Shown here piece by piece: positions 8,939 to 51,260 of a DNA stretch of 64,000 nucleotides (position 1 is its first letter; each line of letters starts with the position of its first letter). Under the pieces are notes generated by a model, which ran no database searches, had not been told where the DNA came from, and saw nothing but the letters and a program-made list of their open reading frames with translations. Location of the stretch: assembly GCA_017520935.1 (NCBI GenBank), contig JAFXEF010000052.1:1-64000 (forward strand). Direction: 5' to 3'. The translations under genes and the position numbers were made by a program. This stretch comes from Bacteroidaceae bacterium. GTDB taxonomy: Bacteria > Bacteroidota > Bacteroidia > Bacteroidales > Bacteroidaceae.

Positions 8939-9556
8939 TCAGAAAGCTTTTCCGGTAAACGGCATGCGGTTCACCAATGAGCGCCCCAACGTGGCCTCGT
9001 CGGCATACTCTAACTCGTCGCCTACGGAGATGCCGCGCGAGAGCACCGACATCTTCACTCCCGGGCTCTCCAGCCGGCGGTAGATGTAGAAGTTGGTGGT
9101 GTCGCCCTCCATCGTAGGGCTGAGCGCAAATATCACCTCGCTCACCTCGCCCGAGCGCACACGCTCTACTAAGCTGTCGATTTCCAGGTCCGAGGGACCT
9201 ATGCCATCCATCGGCGAGATGACGCCACCTAACACGTGATACAGGCCACGGTAGAGCGAGGTGTTCTCCACGGCTATCACATCGCGCACCGTCTCTACCA
9301 CACACACCATGCTGCTGTCGCGCGAGGGCTGTGCGCAAATCTCACACACGTCGTCGTCCGAGATGTTGTGACACACCTTGCAGTATTTCACTTCGCGCCG
9401 TAGCGTGGCCACCGCATCGGCAAAGGCCTCGGCCTCGGCGGCCGGTTGGCGCAGCAGGTGCAACACCAGGCGGAGCGCTGTCTTGCGCCCTATGCCCGGC
9501 AATTTGGCAAACTCGCCCACTGCCCGCTCAAGCAATGTAGATGAATACTGTTGCAT
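8939..9556 (-). CDS. recR: Recombination mediator RecR
   Basis: Acts with RecO/RecF to load RecA at gaps. The 205-residue protein has the N-terminal helix-hairpin-helix ([21 protein letters not shown], about 14-34), a C4 zinc finger (CKVC...CEIC, about 59-77), and the Toprim domain starting [15 protein letters not shown] (about 83) with [20 protein letters not shown] near the end. Length is standard. It heads the operon recR > membrane protein > GT2 > GNAT on the minus strand. Confidence 0.96.
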
Positions 9557-9600: not shown

Positions 9601-11487
9601 CTACTTCTGATTGGGGAAAAGCATCAGCTTCACCTGCTTCAGCTCGTTGCCGCGATCCCATAGGGCGTTCTGGATATTCACATTGGTCACCCGCTCCAGC
9701 AGGACGCTGCTCTTGTTCCAGTGCAGGGGAGGGTAGTCCGAATTGTGCTTGATGCTATTGCCCCGCCACAGTAGCCCGTCTACCGACTTGGCATAGAGCA
9801 GAGGGTGGTCAAACGTGTGGAACTCATTGTCCACGATGCGTATGGCGTTCTTCTTCCCGCCGTGGAAGTAGGCCTTCTGTCCCTCAAGGTCGGGTATCTC
9901 GGGGTAGATGGAGATGACGGCATTGGTAAACTGGAACATGTTGGTGAGCGCATTCACGAATCGGTTGCGGCGGATGACGACATCGCGGCAGGCGCCTGTC
10001 TCGTACCACCCGTTACAGTCGCCACAGAGCAGGATGGCCGTGCCCGACGTGTGGTCGAAGAGGTTGTCCTCCACCACCGTACGGCGTGGGGTGCTGAAGA
10101 GCGTGCCGCGGGCGCGGTTGTTGCGGATGGTGTTGTGGGCGAAGTACACCTCGGGAGTCCATGTCAGGTTCTCGATGCCGAAGCCCTCGGCGGCGACAAC
10201 CGCCTCGGGTAGCGGGTCGCTGAAGCGGATGATAAACTCGCGGGCACCGTGAGAAACACCGTGCTGCCAGTGCTCCCTATTCGAGTTCCCTGAGTTCTCC
10301 GATACCTCCGATATCTCTGCCACCTCAGTGACAAACGGCTCCGCTCCGCCCACCAGCTCCATCGTGCGCGACCGCACGAACTGCACCTTGTCGCCCGTGT
10401 AGCCCCAGTCGAAGCCCCAGGCCTGTCCGTGCATGTAGCGGGCGCGCAGGGTATGGTCGTCGATGCGCTCCGTCACCTTCAAGTAGGTGCCGTGCACATT
10501 GATGGCATCGTCCATCATCCCCTCATAGAGGCCGTTCACCGAACGTATCTTTCCCTTGCAGCCCGAGAAGTGGGTGGCGTCGGCCTGTGTGGTGAAGTAG
10601 CGCGGGTCGTCATCGCCACGCAGACACACCGAGAAGCCGTCCAGCGTGATGTCTTCGCTCATCTGTGCCAGCAGCCCCATGCCCTCGGCATAGTGCACCT
10701 TGATGTTTTCGAGGCGTGTGTCCTTGGCATGGCTCACGAAGATGCCCGGCGAAGGGCGCTCGTAGGTGCGCATGGCCACGATGGTGCCCGGCCTGAGGCG
10801 TCTGTCTCTCCATACGGGGCTGTGGAAGGTATCCTCATCTATCTGCTCCACCTGATGCACGGGTGTGCCGATGTCCGACGTGTTGTATACGATGTGGCGC
10901 GTGTCGGGCTCGAAGGCGATGCCCCATCCCGGGCGCATGGCCCAACCCTCGCCGCAGTGCTCGAAGGCTCCCTCGGCAGTCACCCGGGCGTTGACCCACG
11001 GCGCCACCCGGAAGGTGATTCCCTGCTCGGGGTCATTGGCCACCACCTCGGCCTGGGCTATATGCGGTGTGGCAAAGTCGATGCTCAGATTGCGTAGCGT
11101 ACACTTCGTGGTGCCCACCACACTGACGGGCAGCATGCGCCCGTGGAAGATGAGGTCGGCACCGCAGCCGTCGAGCGTCAGCCCGCTGAACCCCTCTATG
11201 GCGATGCCCACCGCACGGTCGGCATGCTGGTCGTGGTTCGATATGTAGTACTCCTTGTGTACGGCCCCCTCGGGGTAGAAGTGATACGTGCCCGGAGCCA
11301 GGCGTATGGTCACGGCACGCCCGGCCGCCTCGGCCTTCACCTTGCCCAGCAGCTGCTCCATGAGCGGACCCATATCTTTCTCCGTGCTCGGCACTATCCC
11401 ATACGATGCGGCATCATATACTCGTGCTGCCCCGGCCATGGAGGCAAGCATCACACACACTAAGATGGCGGATAAGCGTTTCTTCAT
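9601..11487 (-). CDS. glaB: GH110 alpha-1,3-galactosidase (exported)
   Basis: Releases alpha-1,3-linked galactose, as found in blood group B or linear alpha-Gal structures, outside the inner membrane. A signal peptide MKKRLSAILVCVMLASMAGA precedes a right-handed parallel beta-helix, recognisable from repeated short strands such as SGLTLDGCGADLIFHG, CTLRNLSIDF and DITLDGFSVCL. The family signature GLYEGMMDDAINVHGTYLKV is near residue 355; the Asp pair is the likely catalytic site. ATG at 11487 is chosen because it starts the signal peptide; an in-frame extension to 11571 adds an implausible charged leader. A short Ser/Glu/Asn-rich insertion (EVSENSGNSNREHWQ, near 410) is unusual. Length 628. 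GlaB rather than GlaA subtype is a judgement from overall resemblance. Confidence 0.87.
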   Translation of the reverse strand: MKKRLSAILVCVMLASMAGAARVYDAASYGIVPSTEKDMGPLMEQLLGKVKAEAAGRAVTIRLAPGTYHFYPEGAVHKEYYISNHDQHADRAVGIAIEGFSGLTLDGCGADLIFHGRMLPVSVVGTTKCTLRNLSIDFATPHIAQAEVVANDPEQGITFRVAPWVNARVTAEGAFEHCGEGWAMRPGWGIAFEPDTRHIVYNTSDIGTPVHQVEQIDEDTFHSPVWRDRRLRPGTIVAMRTYERPSPGIFVSHAKDTRLENIKVHYAEGMGLLAQMSEDITLDGFSVCLRGDDDPRYFTTQADATHFSGCKGKIRSVNGLYEGMMDDAINVHGTYLKVTERIDDHTLRARYMHGQAWGFDWGYTGDKVQFVRSRTMELVGGAEPFVTEVAEISEVSENSGNSNREHWQHGVSHGAREFIIRFSDPLPEAVVAAEGFGIENLTWTPEVYFAHNTIRNNRARGTLFSTPRRTVVEDNLFDHTSGTAILLCGDCNGWYETGACRDVVIRRNRFVNALTNMFQFTNAVISIYPEIPDLEGQKAYFHGGKKNAIRIVDNEFHTFDHPLLYAKSVDGLLWRGNSIKHNSDYPPLHWNKSSVLLERVTNVNIQNALWDRGNELKQVKLMLFPNQK

Positions 11488-11568: not shown

Positions 11569-11576
11569 CAAAGGTA
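11569..11576 (-). promoter_or_regulatory. -7 box of the GH110 gene
   Basis: Minus-strand TACCTTTG, 81 bp upstream of the ATG at 11487. No convincing -33 TTTG is seen at the normal distance. Confidence 0.5.
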
Positions 11577-11868: not shown

Positions 11869-11957
11869 GTAGAGGGCTGTGTCATCCGTGCCGCGCCTGT
11901 GACATCAGATACCCATATTGCCGGACAGGCAGCCTTTGAGACAAGAACCATCCCTCA

Positions 11958-12001
11958 CGAAGAAAATTTTGTTTCATCGCGAAGAAAATTTTGTTTTATC
12001 G
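11958..12001. repeat. 22-bp tandem repeat
   Basis: cgaagaaaattttgtttcatcg (11958-11979) is followed at once by a copy with one change (11980-12001), then by the start of a third degenerate unit (cgtagaaac). The unit contains the palindrome aaaatttt. Confidence 0.85.
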
Positions 12002-12132
12002 CGTAGAAACAAAAATCGCCTCCTCGGCGAGGGAAAAACCAGTGCCGTGAACTGTCCGTGCACAGACGGTGTCGGTCGGACGAGCGTTGGTGGATATGTG
12101 CGAAAGCTATATCTTCGCATATTTCCCCTCTC

Positions 12133-12185
12133 ACGCTGATTCTTTGTCTCACGCAGACTCCGCCGACTTCCGCAGACTTTGGCGA
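12133..12185. repeat. Dispersed CACGCAGACTCCGC-type intergenic element, copy 1
   Basis: Contains ctcacgctgattctttgtctcacgcagactccgccgacttccgcagac in three short steps. The same word pattern (ctcacgcagac, tccgc-gac, ttacgcagaa) recurs at 16535-16735 and 17540-17605, always between genes. Confidence 0.6.
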
Positions 12186-12214
12186 GTCGCTTCGCCTCGG
12201 TAGACATTTGGCTG

Positions 12215-12373
12215 ATCTCCGGGGAAGAGATAACGGATTGAGGATAAGCGTGAGTGCAATGAGGTACTTAATTGATTATTTGGCTTATATTTCAATGTTT
12301 ATCTCAAAAAAGCAACATTTATTCAACTAATTTTCATACCTTTGTACGCTTAATTAATCTCTTCCCCGGAGAT
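12215..12373. repeat. 17-bp inverted repeat enclosing a promoter (candidate invertible segment)
   Basis: atctccggggaagagat at 12215-12231 and its exact reverse complement at 12357-12373 bound a 125-bp AT-rich interval. The interval contains TACCTTTG at 12337-12344, pointing at the secreted-protein gene at 12505. Each repeat has ATCTC/GAGAT arms around a 7-bp asymmetric centre (CGGGGAA); at the right-hand site the arms extend to 9 bp. This is the layout of a site-specific recombinase crossover site. No recombinase gene lies in the window. Inversion is inferred, not shown. Confidence 0.7.
12337..12344 (+). promoter_or_regulatory. -7 box of the 1163-aa secreted protein gene, inside the inverted repeat
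   Basis: TACCTTTG, with predicted transcription start near 12350 and a leader of about 150 nt before the ATG at 12505. The right-hand 17-bp repeat would lie in the leader RNA. The -33 region is AT-rich without an exact TTTG. Confidence 0.6.
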
Positions 12374-12504
12374 TAATAGGATGGTAAGTGCTAACAACCA
12401 TAAATACAGGTGTATATAACAGAGAGAACGATAAAAACAGGATACCAAGAAAACTTATAAAACAGAGAGGAAAACAATTATTTAATAACTAAAACAAACT
12501 AATC

Positions 12505-15500
12505 ATGAGAAAAAAATTTACTATGCTTTTGGCTGCACTCCTTGCTTGTGCGGGAGTGATGAAGGCGGACGTTACTGATCTGCCTGTGCTGACGACAAGT
12601 ACCGATGACATCAAGTGGTACGCAATTAAAAACACCCGTTCGGGCAAATATGCCAGCTATGCAGGTGATGGTGTGCAGATGACACAAGAGGAGGCGATTT
12701 CTGTGAACTCTTTGTTCTATTTTACAGCTGTTGATGGTGAAGTGGCTGATGGCTTTACTGCCGTGAAGATTCATGCGTTTATGACAGAGAATCTTCTCTC
12801 TAACTATAATTCATGGACGGCAGAAGGCGTTACATGGTACCTTCACGAAGATACTTATTCGAAGGTGGAGGATGTTGTGACTCCTGCAGGTTTGCATTTT
12901 GTTAAAGAAGCAAACCTTGAAGGTTGGAATGCATTGAACGATGCTAATCAGACAAAGATTACAGATTATTATTCACAAGATGCAGGCTCTATTTTCGTTG
13001 TAGAAAGTGTAGATGCATCTCAATTGCCGAATTTGGTAGATGCTTATTTGCCTACTGTTAAAGAAGCCGCAAAAACAGAACTTGAAACTCTTGCTCAGGG
13101 AACAGACATCTACCCAGCAGCAACAACGGCTATTGAAGAGGTTGAAGATGTTACACTTGTCAATACTACTCCTTCTGAAGTGATTGCCGCTGCTGAGGCA
13201 GTTGATGCTATTGTCGCTACATACAAGATCAATGCTTACAAGGCTCTTGAGGGTAAGTACTTTACACTCTACACCCCTGGCCGCAGTGGTTATGCAAAAA
13301 TGACCGTAAGTGGCACTGGTAATGCTGGAACCGCAAGCACTCCTGATTTTATTTGGCAGTTTGTAGAGAATAACGGTTCTGTTAACATCTACAATCCTTA
13401 TATTGGTAAATACCTTGTAATGAATGGTACTAACGCAATGAATGTTACGGCAAACCAGGCAGAGGCTGGCGCTTTTGACATAACAGTTGCAAGTACCCCT
13501 TCTGATGAAAACGCGAAAATAGGTTTCAAGAGCAATGGATGGTATATACATTTGAATGGTAGTCTTTTGGGCTGGTACTCTGGTGGTGCTTCGGAGTGGA
13601 CCGTAGCTGAAGTTACTGACTTCACTACTATGGTAGAAGCCTATAAACTTTCGTCTATCGCTACTTTGGATTCTTGGTCTACTCTTAGTGTCGTATTTGA
13701 TGCTGGACTAATTAATACAGCTAAAGAAAACATCAATGCTATCGAGACAACAGATTGGGCTACGTTCGCAGAGATTGATGCCGAGTTGAAGAATGTTACT
13801 GATGCTGTTGCTGCTAAGATGTTCACATTCCAAAATAGCAATACTACCGAACCGAATCGTAGCAACGTGTATTTGGCAGCGGATATGAGCGACAACAAGG
13901 GACGTGGTAATAAGGTGTATGACTACAATGCTGTATGGAGTTTGAAAAGTGCAGGTGGTGCCTCCTTCTATCTTTATAACGAACTGAATGAAGTTTATTT
14001 GGGTACCCCTAGCAGTGCAGGTACTTTGACATCAGCCCCTGCAGCTGCTTACACATTCGAGGTCGTAGACAAAAATACTAATCTCGTCGAATTGAAGAGC
14101 GGTAGTCAGACATTGCACGTACACAATTGGGAGGACTGCACCCTGACAAATTATGATGGTGATGAATCGGCTTCTCGTTGGTATGTTAAAATCGCGGACA
14201 TAACGACTGATATCACAACTTTGCTTGAGACTATTGGCGAGAATGATTATGCTGAAGAACCTGCTCTTGGTCAATACCCCAAAGCCGCATACGATGCACT
14301 TGTGGAGGCTAAAACTACAGCAAAAACGATTCAAGAGGTTGAGGCTGCTATCGCAGCGTTCAAGCTTTCACTCAATTCTCCTGTATACTTCATTACCAGT
14401 GCTCATGATGGCTATGCGGCAGGTTCGGCTATCTATTATGATGGCGCATGGAAGTGGAAAGCTGCCAATAAGTTTGACAAGCAGATGTGGATGACTATCC
14501 CTGGCTATACTCAAGAGAATGTTCCTGTAGTGGATACATACGATGCTGATGGAACCTCATACGAAATCTGTGACTTCCTTACTGGTACTGTGATGCGTGG
14601 CAAGAGCGTGCAGATTGTAAAGATTTCTGGTTGGGAAGGTGCTTATAACTTGCAGTATGGTACAACACTGTATGATGCTGCTCAGCATGCTGCAGGTAGT
14701 GGCTCGTTGGTTAATTGGAACCCCGCAACGTCTTCGGATTGCCAAGCCTCTGCATGGCAGGTAGAGTACATCGGTAACAGCTATGACCTCGCACAGTTGC
14801 CGTTTACCGACGAATTCTTGACAGCAGCTGCTGAACTCAGAGCCGTTACTGTTCCTGCCTTCGACTTTAAAGATGGTGTGAACAATTATGACGAAACTAC
14901 CAAGCCTGCTCTTGATGCAGCTGTGAAAAATCGTGCTATAGTATTGAGCGACCTCGAGTCTACAACTGAAGATTTGGTCTCAGCTAAGCAGCAACTCGTA
15001 GATGCTATTGCTGGCGTACAAATCAATATGCCTGAGAATGGCAAGTTCTATCGTGTACGTTGCGCTGGTAATGGTATGAAGTATCTTCAGTCTACATTGG
15101 ATGAATCTAATGCGAACGATGTTCGTCTTCAGGTTCTTTCTTCAGCAACATCTGTCAACGCTACCTTCTGCTATATTGATGGTGCTTTGCTTTCTTACAC
15201 TACTGGTCTCTACATCAACGCTTATCGTTTCAATGGAGTAGGCACCAAGAGTGAGGTAGCATTCTCTAAGGCCAGCAATGGTAAGGTGGGTACTTATAAC
15301 ATTTTAGTAGATGGCCGTTACATCTTTGGCGCTTCTGATAATAATAAGATTGATTCAGGTACTACGCCCGATGCTCGCGATGGATATACATGGTGGCTCG
15401 AAGAGGTAACCACCCTCCCCGTAACTGTTAGCGCTGCTGGCTATGCTACCCTGTATGCTCCCGTAGCTTTGAATATTCTTGAGGAGAGTGTAACTGTATA

Positions 15501-15996
15501 CACTGCAGCTGTAAAGGGTGAGTACCTGACTTTGAAGCCAATAGAAGAAGGTGGTGCTATCCCAGCTAAGACTGGTGTTCTCATCGAGGCTGCTGAGGGC
15601 ACATACAACTTCGAGATAACAGGAGACGATGTTGTGCCTATTGATGATAACGCTTTCACTGGTGCACTTGCCAAGTCTACTAAGAATGCCGAGAAGAAGG
15701 TATACACCTTGCAGAAACCGACCAATAATGAAGTGGGTTTCTACCTTTTCAAGGGTCAGAACAGCGAAGGTGCTACCACCTACATCAACGGTTTCCGTGC
15801 ATGGGTAGAACTCGATCCTGAGACTTCTGTTCAGGCTCTCCGCATCACACGTGGCGGTGCTGAAGATACCACAGGCATTGAGCAGCTCGTGGACAACAAT
15901 GCCGAGCTGGTAATCTACGACCTCCTTGGCCGTCGCGTAGAGAAGATGGAGAAGGGTATCTACATTGTGAACGGACGTAAAGTTGTGATTAAGTGA
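12505..15996 (+). CDS. Large secreted multidomain protein with Bacteroidales C-terminal tail
   Basis: No enzymatic family is recognised. A signal peptide (MRKKFTMLLAALLACAGVMKA) is followed by repeated beta-rich modules with aromatic/Gly patterns resembling beta-trefoil or carbohydrate-binding units: KWYAIKNTRSGKYASY near 33, GKYFTLYTPGRSGYAKM near 250, SNVYLAADMSDNKGRG near 455, PVYFITSAHDGYAAGS near 628 and GKFYRVRCAGNGMKYLQ near 845. Alpha-helical spacers rich in Ala/Glu/Thr separate them. Residues ~970-1110 are a conserved beta domain (SAAGYATLYAPVAL...). The last ~35 residues (ELVIYDLLGRRVEK...GIYIVNGRKVVIK) match the short C-terminal sorting-like tail of Bacteroidales surface proteins. 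The gene is more AT-rich, with T-ending codons, than its neighbours, and lies behind an inverted-repeat-bounded promoter. Adhesin or glycan-binding roles are guesses. Confidence 0.85.
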   Translation: MRKKFTMLLAALLACAGVMKADVTDLPVLTTSTDDIKWYAIKNTRSGKYASYAGDGVQMTQEEAISVNSLFYFTAVDGEVADGFTAVKIHAFMTENLLSNYNSWTAEGVTWYLHEDTYSKVEDVVTPAGLHFVKEANLEGWNALNDANQTKITDYYSQDAGSIFVVESVDASQLPNLVDAYLPTVKEAAKTELETLAQGTDIYPAATTAIEEVEDVTLVNTTPSEVIAAAEAVDAIVATYKINAYKALEGKYFTLYTPGRSGYAKMTVSGTGNAGTASTPDFIWQFVENNGSVNIYNPYIGKYLVMNGTNAMNVTANQAEAGAFDITVASTPSDENAKIGFKSNGWYIHLNGSLLGWYSGGASEWTVAEVTDFTTMVEAYKLSSIATLDSWSTLSVVFDAGLINTAKENINAIETTDWATFAEIDAELKNVTDAVAAKMFTFQNSNTTEPNRSNVYLAADMSDNKGRGNKVYDYNAVWSLKSAGGASFYLYNELNEVYLGTPSSAGTLTSAPAAAYTFEVVDKNTNLVELKSGSQTLHVHNWEDCTLTNYDGDESASRWYVKIADITTDITTLLETIGENDYAEEPALGQYPKAAYDALVEAKTTAKTIQEVEAAIAAFKLSLNSPVYFITSAHDGYAAGSAIYYDGAWKWKAANKFDKQMWMTIPGYTQENVPVVDTYDADGTSYEICDFLTGTVMRGKSVQIVKISGWEGAYNLQYGTTLYDAAQHAAGSGSLVNWNPATSSDCQASAWQVEYIGNSYDLAQLPFTDEFLTAAAELRAVTVPAFDFKDGVNNYDETTKPALDAAVKNRAIVLSDLESTTEDLVSAKQQLVDAIAGVQINMPENGKFYRVRCAGNGMKYLQSTLDESNANDVRLQVLSSATSVNATFCYIDGALLSYTTGLYINAYRFNGVGTKSEVAFSKASNGKVGTYNILVDGRYIFGASDNNKIDSGTTPDARDGYTWWLEEVTTLPVTVSAAGYATLYAPVALNILEESVTVYTAAVKGEYLTLKPIEEGGAIPAKTGVLIEAAEGTYNFEITGDDVVPIDDNAFTGALAKSTKNAEKKVYTLQKPTNNEVGFYLFKGQNSEGATTYINGFRAWVELDPETSVQALRITRGGAEDTTGIEQLVDNNAELVIYDLLGRRVEKMEKGIYIVNGRKVVIK

Positions 15997-36874: not shown

Positions 36875-36905
36875 TTGGCTTTTTACTCGCTTATTCGTAC
36901 CTTTG
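36875..36905 (+). promoter_or_regulatory. Promoter of recG (near-leaderless)
   Basis: TTGG at 36875-36878 and TACCTTTG at 36898-36905, 20 bp apart. Only five bases separate the -7 box from the recG ATG at 36911. Confidence 0.65.
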
Positions 36906-36910
36906 CATCC

Positions 36911-39010
36911 ATGTACGACTTGACGACGCGCGACATACAGTATCTGCAAGGGGTTGGCCCCCAACGGGCAGCTTTGCTGACCAAGGAGCTGGGAGTAACT
37001 TCTATGCACGATCTGCTTTACAACTTCCCTTACAAGTATGTCGATCGCAGTCGCCTCTACTACATCCATGAGATTGACGGCAACATGCCCTATATACAGC
37101 TTAAGGGAAAGATCTTGCGCTATGAGACCAACGGTACGGGACGTAAGATGCGCCTTGTAGCCCACTTCTCGGATGGTACGGGGGTGATAGACCTTGTGTG
37201 GTTCAACGGTGCCAAGTTTATTCCCAAGAACTATCCTGTAGGCGTGGAGTATATCGTATTCGGCAAGCCCACGATGTTTGGTGACCGCATCAATGTGGCA
37301 CACCCTGATATAGATAAAGCTTCAGAGCTGTCGCTTTCTGCCATGGGCTTACAGCCTTATTACAGCACTACGGAGCGTATGAAACGCTGCGGACTCAACA
37401 GTAATGCCTTGCAGAAACTTGTGGGTAACCTCTTCGCCTTGTTTGAACGCATGCCTATCAGCGAGACCCTGCCCGAGTCGTTCGTGTGCGAACATCACCT
37501 TATGCCCCTTGCCGAGGCGCTCTATACCATCCACTTTCCCAAAGACCCCGAGACGTTACGCCGTGCCCAGTACCGACTCAAGTTCGAGGAACTCTTCTAC
37601 GTGCAGCTCAGTATCCTGCGCTATAGCAAGGATCGCCGTCGCAAGTGCCGTGGACTCTGCTTCGCCAAGGTGGGCGACTTGTTCAATGAGTTCTACGCCA
37701 AGAAGCTCCCCTTTGAACTCACGGGGGCGCAGAAACGTGTCATCCGTGAGATGCGCCACGACATGAATAGCGGCCGCCAAATGAATCGCCTCCTGCAGGG
37801 CGACGTGGGTAGCGGAAAGACACTCGTGGCGCTCATGTCCTCGCTCATAGCCATCGGTAACGGCTACCAAGCCTGTATCATGGCACCTACCGAGATATTG
37901 GCCGAGCAGCACTATGCTACCCTCTCCTCGATGCTCGAAGGACTTCCCGTGCGTGTAGCCTTGCTTACTGGCAGCGTGAAGGGAAAGAATCGCAAGGAGG
38001 TGCTTGAAGGACTTATTCGTGGCGACATCCAGCTGCTTGTAGCCACCCATGCTGTGCTCGAAGATACGGTTCAGTTCTCGTCACTCGGATTCGTTGTCAT
38101 CGATGAACAACACCGCTTCGGTGTAGCACAGCGTGCCAAACTGTGGACGAAGAACACCTTTCCACCACACGTGCTCGTAATGACAGCTACCCCCATCCCG
38201 CGTACCCTCGCCATGACACTCTACGGCGACCTCGACGTGAGTGTCATCGATGAGTTGCCTCCAGGTCGCAAGCCCATACAGACCATACACCAATATGATA
38301 ACCGGCAGACACAGCTCTATCGTTTCATGGGCGAACAGATTGCACAAGGGCATCAGGTATACGTGGTATATCCCCTCATCAAGGAGAGTGAGAAGATAGA
38401 CCTCAAGAACCTCGAGGAGGGCTATGTGCAGGTGTGCGAGGCTTTCCCGCATTGCGCCGTGAGCATGGTACACGGTAAGATGAAGCCTGCGGAGAAGGAT
38501 GCCGAGATGCAGCGCTTCCTACAGCGTGAAACGCAGATTATGGTAGCCACAACTGTGATTGAGGTAGGCGTGAACGTGCCCAACGCCTCGGTGATGGTTG
38601 TTGAGAATGCAGAGCGTTTTGGCCTCTCGCAACTGCATCAGCTCAGGGGAAGGGTGGGGCGTGGCGCAGACCAATCGTACTGCGTGCTTGTGACCTCTGT
38701 GAAACTTTCTGAGGAGAGCAAGAAACGACTTGACATCATGGTGCGCACCAACGATGGTTTCGAGATTGCCGAAGCCGACCTCAAACTGCGTGGGCCAGGT
38801 GATCTTGAAGGTACCCAGCAGAGTGGCATCGCCTTTGACCTCAAAATTGCCAATATCGCCCGCGATGGACAGATCTTGGGACACGTGCGTGGCATTGCCG
38901 AGCGTATCACCGATGAAGACCCCGATGGGGTGCGCCCTGAGAATGCCCTCATGTGGCAGCAGCTCGAACGCCTGCGTAAGACTAATGTGAACTGGAGTGC
39001 CATCTCGTGA
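36911..39010 (+). CDS. recG: ATP-dependent DNA helicase RecG
   Basis: Remodels stalled forks and branched DNA. N-terminal wedge/OB domain starts MYDLTTRDIQYLQGVGPQRA; helicase motifs: Walker A GDVGSGKT near 305, VATHAVLEDTV near 380, motif II DEQHRFG near 400, MTATPIPRTLAMT near 430, QLRGRVGRGADQSYC near 580. The 699-residue length is standard. ATG at 36911 is used; the open frame extends to 36854, but that part covers the promoter. Confidence 0.97.
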   Translation: MYDLTTRDIQYLQGVGPQRAALLTKELGVTSMHDLLYNFPYKYVDRSRLYYIHEIDGNMPYIQLKGKILRYETNGTGRKMRLVAHFSDGTGVIDLVWFNGAKFIPKNYPVGVEYIVFGKPTMFGDRINVAHPDIDKASELSLSAMGLQPYYSTTERMKRCGLNSNALQKLVGNLFALFERMPISETLPESFVCEHHLMPLAEALYTIHFPKDPETLRRAQYRLKFEELFYVQLSILRYSKDRRRKCRGLCFAKVGDLFNEFYAKKLPFELTGAQKRVIREMRHDMNSGRQMNRLLQGDVGSGKTLVALMSSLIAIGNGYQACIMAPTEILAEQHYATLSSMLEGLPVRVALLTGSVKGKNRKEVLEGLIRGDIQLLVATHAVLEDTVQFSSLGFVVIDEQHRFGVAQRAKLWTKNTFPPHVLVMTATPIPRTLAMTLYGDLDVSVIDELPPGRKPIQTIHQYDNRQTQLYRFMGEQIAQGHQVYVVYPLIKESEKIDLKNLEEGYVQVCEAFPHCAVSMVHGKMKPAEKDAEMQRFLQRETQIMVATTVIEVGVNVPNASVMVVENAERFGLSQLHQLRGRVGRGADQSYCVLVTSVKLSEESKKRLDIMVRTNDGFEIAEADLKLRGPGDLEGTQQSGIAFDLKIANIARDGQILGHVRGIAERITDEDPDGVRPENALMWQQLERLRKTNVNWSAIS

Positions 39011-50924: not shown

Positions 50925-50942
50925 TAACGAAGTTTGGTTAAG

Positions 50943-51260
50943 ATGACGGAAGTAGATGAAATTGTAATCAAAAACTTTGAGTCGAAGCTAAGCCGATTGA
51001 TGGACGCGTATACGCAAGTTTCTGAAGAGAACACCCTGTTGCGTGAACAGCTGGACCGCCAATCCGCAGAGTTAGGCAAAGCGCGCGAACAATATGCATT
51101 ACTCGAAAAGTCTTATTCAGACCTCAGACTGGCCAAGATAATCAGTGCCACCGACGATGAAATCGGTGATACACAGAAGCGATTATCCAAGTTAGTGCGT
51201 GAAGTGGACAAGTGCATAGCACTACTCAATGCATCAGAGCAAAAAGAAGACATGCTATGA
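50943..51260 (+). CDS. Small coiled-coil protein upstream of zapA (ZapB-like in form)
   Basis: A 105-residue protein from MTEVDEIVIKNFESKL. Residues ~8-70 are heptad-rich (LMDAYTQVSEENTLLREQLDRQSAELGKARE) and the end is helical with VREVDKCIALL. It overlaps zapA by ATGA. Position and shape suggest a division-associated partner of ZapA, like ZapB in other bacteria, but sequence similarity to ZapB is not evident. Confidence 0.75.
   Translation: MTEVDEIVIKNFESKLSRLMDAYTQVSEENTLLREQLDRQSAELGKAREQYALLEKSYSDLRLAKIISATDDEIGDTQKRLSKLVREVDKCIALLNASEQKEDML

Follow-up and report, generated by a model that had tools for sequence, protein, structure and literature searches.

The window analyzed here is a 64,000-nucleotide stretch of the genome of a Bacteroidaceae bacterium (contig JAFXEF010000052.1). 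The region of interest lies between a GH110-type gene read leftward and a gene for a large secreted-type protein read rightward, hereafter the client gene. Genes and other elements are distributed as follows:

9601-11487, minus strand: GH110-type gene (GLAA-B barrels and beta helix), most likely start ATG 11487
11569-11576, minus strand: own -7 box of the GH110-type gene, TACCTTTG (sequence match)
12016-12030, minus strand: terminator-like hairpin toward the GH110-type gene (consensus match only)
12215-12231, plus strand: putative left recombination site, ATCTC-CGGGGAA-GAGAT, ATCTCCGGGGAAGAGAT, with the joint top matrix score in the window
12232-12356, no strand: candidate invertible segment of 125 bp, G+C 0.30, in the ON orientation in the assembly
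12337-12344, plus strand: Bacteroidetes -7 promoter box TACCTTTG, 12 nt from the right site
12357-12373, minus strand: putative right recombination site, ATCTCTTCCCCGGAGAT, exact inverted copy of the left one, centre 12362-12368
12374-12504, plus strand: 5' leader
12505-15996, plus strand: client gene, 1163 aa, secreted-type, with a signal-peptide-like start

The two sites, both intergenic, form an exact 17-bp inverted repeat (ATCTCCGGGGAAGAGAT / ATCTCTTCCCCGGAGAT) with arms 125 bp apart. Both copies are composed of ATCTC, an asymmetric 7-bp centre and GAGAT; in the right copy the arms of the palindrome reach 9 bp (12353-12361 / 12369-12377). All coordinates proposed in a first-pass annotation of this DNA (repeat, -7 box, arms and gene) were confirmed on the sequence. 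When the window is modelled as a first-order Markov chain, the mean number of exact inverted repeats of 14 bp (spacer 20-600) is 0.05 per 64 kb, and none of at least 15 bp appeared in 60 simulations. A pattern search of the window with 3 mismatches returned these two sites only, for 0.13 expected. The inverted repeat is not a product of chance.

The client gene starts 131 bp beyond the right repeat. It had been described as encoding a large, AT-rich surface protein: the protein is indeed large and of secreted type according to its signal-peptide-like start, which is as far as the indication goes, and its surface location is inferred; the gene is AT-rich only relative to the window (G+C 0.45 compared to 0.51), the enclosed segment itself being at 0.30. 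No Pfam domain was found in the 1163-aa protein, no relative of solved structure was detected by sequence, and there was no plasmid match. Its C-terminal region of about 190 aa is found again in some twelve other large secreted proteins encoded by this genome and is common to many proteins of that kind in the genus. The promoters of the other genes carrying this C-terminal domain lack the repeat in those checked, and thus serve as an internal control. The closest orthologue of the client, in the related genome G013 (52% over the second half of the client), has a promoter, around which no inverted repeat pair was found in this 62% complete genome.

On the other side, the first-pass annotation had suggested that the promoter, once inverted, would fire at the GH110-type gene. 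This proposal is weak: an effect of the leftward transcript on that gene is unlikely because the gene has a promoter of its own (box 11576-11569) and the terminator-like hairpin (12030-12016) intervenes. Judging from these elements, such a transcript probably does little to the GH110-type gene, which is probably not part of the switch. Two kinds of short repeats were also observed in this intergenic region. Positions 12150-12196 (TCACGCAGACTCC..GCGAGTCGCTTCGCCTCGG) belong to a repeat interspersed in genomes of the genus (83-94% identity, several copies in each), which is present in G001, G004, G010, G012, G014 and G018 and also occurs near one of the cassettes described below (C34). Positions 11955-11998 contain short intergenic tandem or inverted units, AAAATTTTGTTT(T/C)..CGCG(A/T)AGAA, found also on contigs C23, C25, C34 and C56, some of which adjoin cassettes in the genome.

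The first-pass annotation had proposed a search of the genome for other copies of the site. We searched the assembly to which the window belongs (G000; 2.89 Mb, 64 contigs, 87% complete) using the site and the leader as queries; genome-wide statistics are derived from pattern searches. Further cassettes of the same site class were recovered: at least four more inverted-repeat promoters with [A]TCTC-N7-GAGA[T] sites precede genes for large secreted proteins.

C35:9174-9336: cassette with sites at 9174-9190 and 9321-9336, ON
C46:50926-51088: cassette with sites at 50926-50942 and 51073-51088, OFF
C34:71494-71666: cassette with sites at 71494-71510 and 71651-71666
C23:36890-37074: cassette with sites at 36890-36905 and 37058-37074

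Their inverted repeats measure 14-16 bp and their spacers 128-153 bp. In all complete cassettes, that of the window included, a TAnnTTTG box lies at a distance of 12-20 nt from one of the repeats, and the clients behind them are all of secreted type (845, 801, 801, 1207 and 1163 aa), with weak matches to beta-trefoil lectins in two. The 7-bp centre is the same inside each pair and differs between cassettes, except that C35 and C46 share theirs. Contig C50 starts within a sixth site, which leaves half a cassette whose outer flank equals those of C35 and C46; the break may reflect an assembler meeting the segment in both orientations, as would be expected in that case, other causes being possible. 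A strong single site with the same centre as C50 was seen at C25:93915-93931 (ATCTCTTGGGGAGAGAT, 19.8 bits); it has no partner and is perhaps a solo or rearranged cassette. Sites at C18:8109 and C63:37940 fall inside coding sequences and were rejected as chance matches.

The likeness between cassettes extends beyond the repeats. Window positions 12392-12533 match the leader and gene start of C35 (83% identity) and of C46 (80%). Leader and first codons are thus 80-83% identical between C35, C46 and the window cassette (contig C33) although the protein bodies behind them differ, and this conservation suggests that promoter, leader and signal-peptide start move as one module.

Evidence that this class of sites inverts comes from C35 and C46, two paralogous cassettes located at separate loci. 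Direct alignment of their 130-bp segments gives 50% identity, and alignment with one of them inverted gives 95.4%, whereas their flanks are collinear (matching at 22/25 bp in the left flank and at 88% of 130 bp in the right one). One of the two has therefore flipped since they were copied, and the class has flipped in this lineage. In the sister species G007, two cassettes of about 570 bp with ATCTC-N7-GAGAT-type sites stand before genes having the same start as the clients of our genome, and their promoters point away from the homologous gene (OFF). The window cassette itself was seen in one orientation (ON) in the single assembly examined.

A candidate recombinase for such sites, which the earlier annotation had also proposed to look for, was found in the genome. 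The assembly encodes eight tyrosine recombinases (PF00589), and no serine resolvase domain (PF00239) was detected in this 87% complete genome. One tyrosine recombinase, of 386 aa, was noted at G000:C4:30000-41000 (L065), between SusC-type genes on opposite strands that share inverted repeats of 14-18 bp. The enzyme matching the sites is P0002:

C56:4994-5938, minus strand: P0002, solitary tyrosine recombinase of 314 aa

P0002 is the orthologue (70% identical) of a 315-aa recombinase of the related genome G014 which adjoins an inverton with TAAATCTCTTAGCAAGAGATT repeats facing a NusG/UpxY-type gene. It carries the conserved catalytic residues R163, K189, R262, H285 and Y294, invariant in 46 sequences, while the usual histidine of box II is a tyrosine in 42 of the 46. 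No relative of solved structure was found by sequence. No repeat pair of the [A]TCTC-N7-GAGA[T] class lies beside P0002, which would therefore act in trans.

To relate this family to its sites, named genomes were scanned for P0002 homologues, and repeats were sought at 80 loci without any assumed motif. Of the 62 loci with enough sequence, 49 have an inverted repeat of 14 bp or more in the first 1 kb past the 3' end of the recombinase gene; for the 1 kb on the opposite side of the gene the count is 1 of 76 loci. Almost all of these repeats have the core TCTC-N7-GAGA, mostly as TCTCTTnnnAAGAGA; Phocaeicola vulgatus ATCC 8482 (L187) is one cultured relative with a P0002-family enzyme next to TCTCTTnnnAAGAGA repeats. 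A TAnnTTTG box lies 6-16 nt from the repeat in 42 of 47 segments, pointing toward the recombinase in 36 of them and away in 6. Several related segments of opposite orientation beside recombinases align at 65-71% when inverted, compared to about 50% directly. A site matrix was then built using 34 different sites taken from these loci, to which our genome contributed none. Among some 64,000 positions, the two window sites take the top two ranks with 13.5 bits, a score for which about 0.24 sites are expected per 64 kb by chance, their exact inverted register around a promoter being a separate matter. The other complete cassettes score 15.8-24.6 bits.

In named Bacteroidales, the first gene beyond a TCTCTTnnnAAGAGA promoter often has a defence function; the products seen were a type ISP/IIG restriction-methylation enzyme, an HKD+Snf2 helicase, a type II methyltransferase and a HerA-like ATPase. 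Such defence-type loci lie at:

L142:6214-10893
L165:6259-9507
L141:6118-7599
L164:6375-9053

It thus appears that both capsule operons and anti-phage operons are phase-varied by a single family of recombinases.

Sites and enzyme were also compared for their co-occurrence in 19 genomes of the genus. Close orthologues of P0002 (E < 1e-80) are found only in G000, G002, G007 and G014; none was detected in G013 (62% complete). Paired ATCTC-N7-GAGAT sites, defined in a single-site search as sites on the same contig, with complementary centres and within 1 kb, are found among the matches listed (for G018, 5 of 9) only in G000, G007 and G014. On these matches, paired sites occur in 3 of the 4 genomes with the orthologue and in 0 of the 15 genomes without it, small numbers drawn from incomplete genomes. 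In the fourth genome, G002, the recombinase gene is cut by the end of its contig, shortly before the position that the inverton occupies in G014. A fixed-gap search for paired sites in the relatives gave matches outside our own genome that look like chance. Site class and co-occurrence together make P0002 the likely enzyme of these cassettes.

The region 12215-12373 is, with good confidence on the basis of these sequence comparisons, an inverton that would switch the 1163-aa secreted protein on and off under the action of P0002 encoded elsewhere. The reading proposed at first, an invertible promoter served by a tyrosine recombinase, is the best supported, in view of the additional cassettes, the matching recombinase and the opposite orientations of C35 and C46. 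P0002 would bind the ATCTC/GAGAT arms of both sites and pair the two sites of one cassette, with crossover in the 7-bp centre; the identical asymmetric centre would favour inversion, so that the 125-bp segment is reversed. In the ON orientation the transcript would begin near the right repeat and run into the client gene; in the OFF orientation the promoter would face left and the client gene would be silent. Because centres are identical within a pair and mostly different between cassettes, each promoter would flip alone while one enzyme serves all. Independent flips could then produce cells with different combinations of secreted proteins. In a broader and more speculative version, which we put forward as somewhat less probable than its contrary, the orphan P0002 would be a free-standing master switch acting in trans on at least five cassettes, the module of cassette, leader and signal peptide having been copied before unrelated protein bodies to generate combinatorial variation of the surface or secretome.

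Other readings were weighed against inversion by P0002. The one that survives best, although it is unlikely, attributes inversion to another tyrosine recombinase (C6, C43, C52, the tandem pair of C56) or to several acting together. Seven of the eight PF00589 proteins are indeed available besides P0002, and in Phocaeicola vulgatus a promoter flips despite a defective adjacent recombinase, another one being thought to act (PMC13114119). However, no strong [A]TCTC-N7-GAGA[T] pair lies near those genes, the C4 enzyme between inverted SusC copies has the layout of a shufflon, and in the species compared here the P0002 family alone shows an association with TCTC-N7-GAGA sites. We consider it improbable, more so than the preceding reading, that the window carries a former inverton locked ON, whose drifted pair (CTCCG for CTCTT in one half site) is no longer recognised. 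This would fit the site score of the window pair, the lowest of the five complete cassettes, and the orthologous gene of G013 standing behind a fixed promoter without repeat pair. Yet the two copies are identical over 17 bp, the two drifted bases included, which argues for continued exchange or a recent origin; the ATCTC/GAGAT arms are intact, and sites beside recombinases vary at the same positions (TCTCTATG.., TCTCCTTTT..). Repeats serving as operators of a regulator, or as an mRNA 5' hairpin, at a fixed promoter are very improbable: the right copy can fold a 10-bp hairpin at the predicted transcript start, but the leader folds with an unremarkable energy (z -0.38), and operators would leave unexplained why C35 and C46 face opposite ways, why the 7-bp centres are private and why the site class is linked to a recombinase gene. 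A chance repeat has a negligible probability given the Markov and shuffle controls and the recurrence of the architecture in the genome.

Inversion of the window promoter by P0002 would add an uncultured genus of Bacteroidales, and a set of large secreted proteins whose function is unknown, to the known cases of phase variation through inverted promoters. The comparison of loci also connects a family of recombinases with its site: in named species, the TCTCTTnnnAAGAGA repeats beside that recombinase stand in front of genes for capsule starters, type ISP restriction-modification enzymes, methyltransferases and helicases. The site matrix offers a simple computational search for promoters controlled in trans in other genomes.

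Several known systems can be compared to this one. In gut Bacteroidales, invertible promoters lie beside a tyrosine DNA invertase at capsule/UpxY and other loci, and groups of invertons are linked to groups of invertases (PMC11892184). The window cassette shares with these promoters the same box, a segment of about 150 bp, a palindromic inverted repeat whose 7-bp centre varies and a recombinase of the same family in the genome, and for its class, as for theirs, both orientations are found in genomes; it differs by a distant recombinase (C56) and by clients which are large secreted proteins instead of capsule or restriction operons. Seen as a TCTC-N7-GAGA inverton, it has the paired core (with a two-base deviation), a box at 12 nt and a recombinase with intact residues; the adjacent recombinase, usual in such invertons and not essential, is missing. 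The tyrosine invertase Tsr19/BF2766 of B. fragilis acts on one local and one distant promoter; two further enzymes, Mpi and Tsr0667, act as master invertases (PMC4747536). With Tsr19/BF2766 the likeness is in mode of action: one tyrosine recombinase would serve several distant promoters, P0002 differing in having no local one. Mpi, a serine invertase of B. fragilis, controls polysaccharide promoters through the repeat ARACGTTCGT (PMC4747536, PMC8375218); the genome-wide control of invertible promoters by one enzyme is similar, but the window repeat is not ARACGTTCGT and PF00239 was not found in our genome. The phase-variable S-layer promoters of B. thetaiotaomicron share the repeat CCGTTACCTABVRAGTAAC (PMC12118408). 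They resemble our set in that one repeat class, with a 5+7+5 layout, precedes large proteins (surface proteins in that species), whereas the arms are GTTAC/GTAAC there and ATCTC/GAGAT here. In SusC/SusD shufflons, by contrast, the repeats lie inside the coding sequences of neighbouring outer-membrane genes, and those of the window are intergenic. Promoter inversion by tyrosine recombinases is already well described in Bacteroidales; the present case differs from those compared in its site class, in its client family and in that the recombinase has no promoter of its own nearby to invert.
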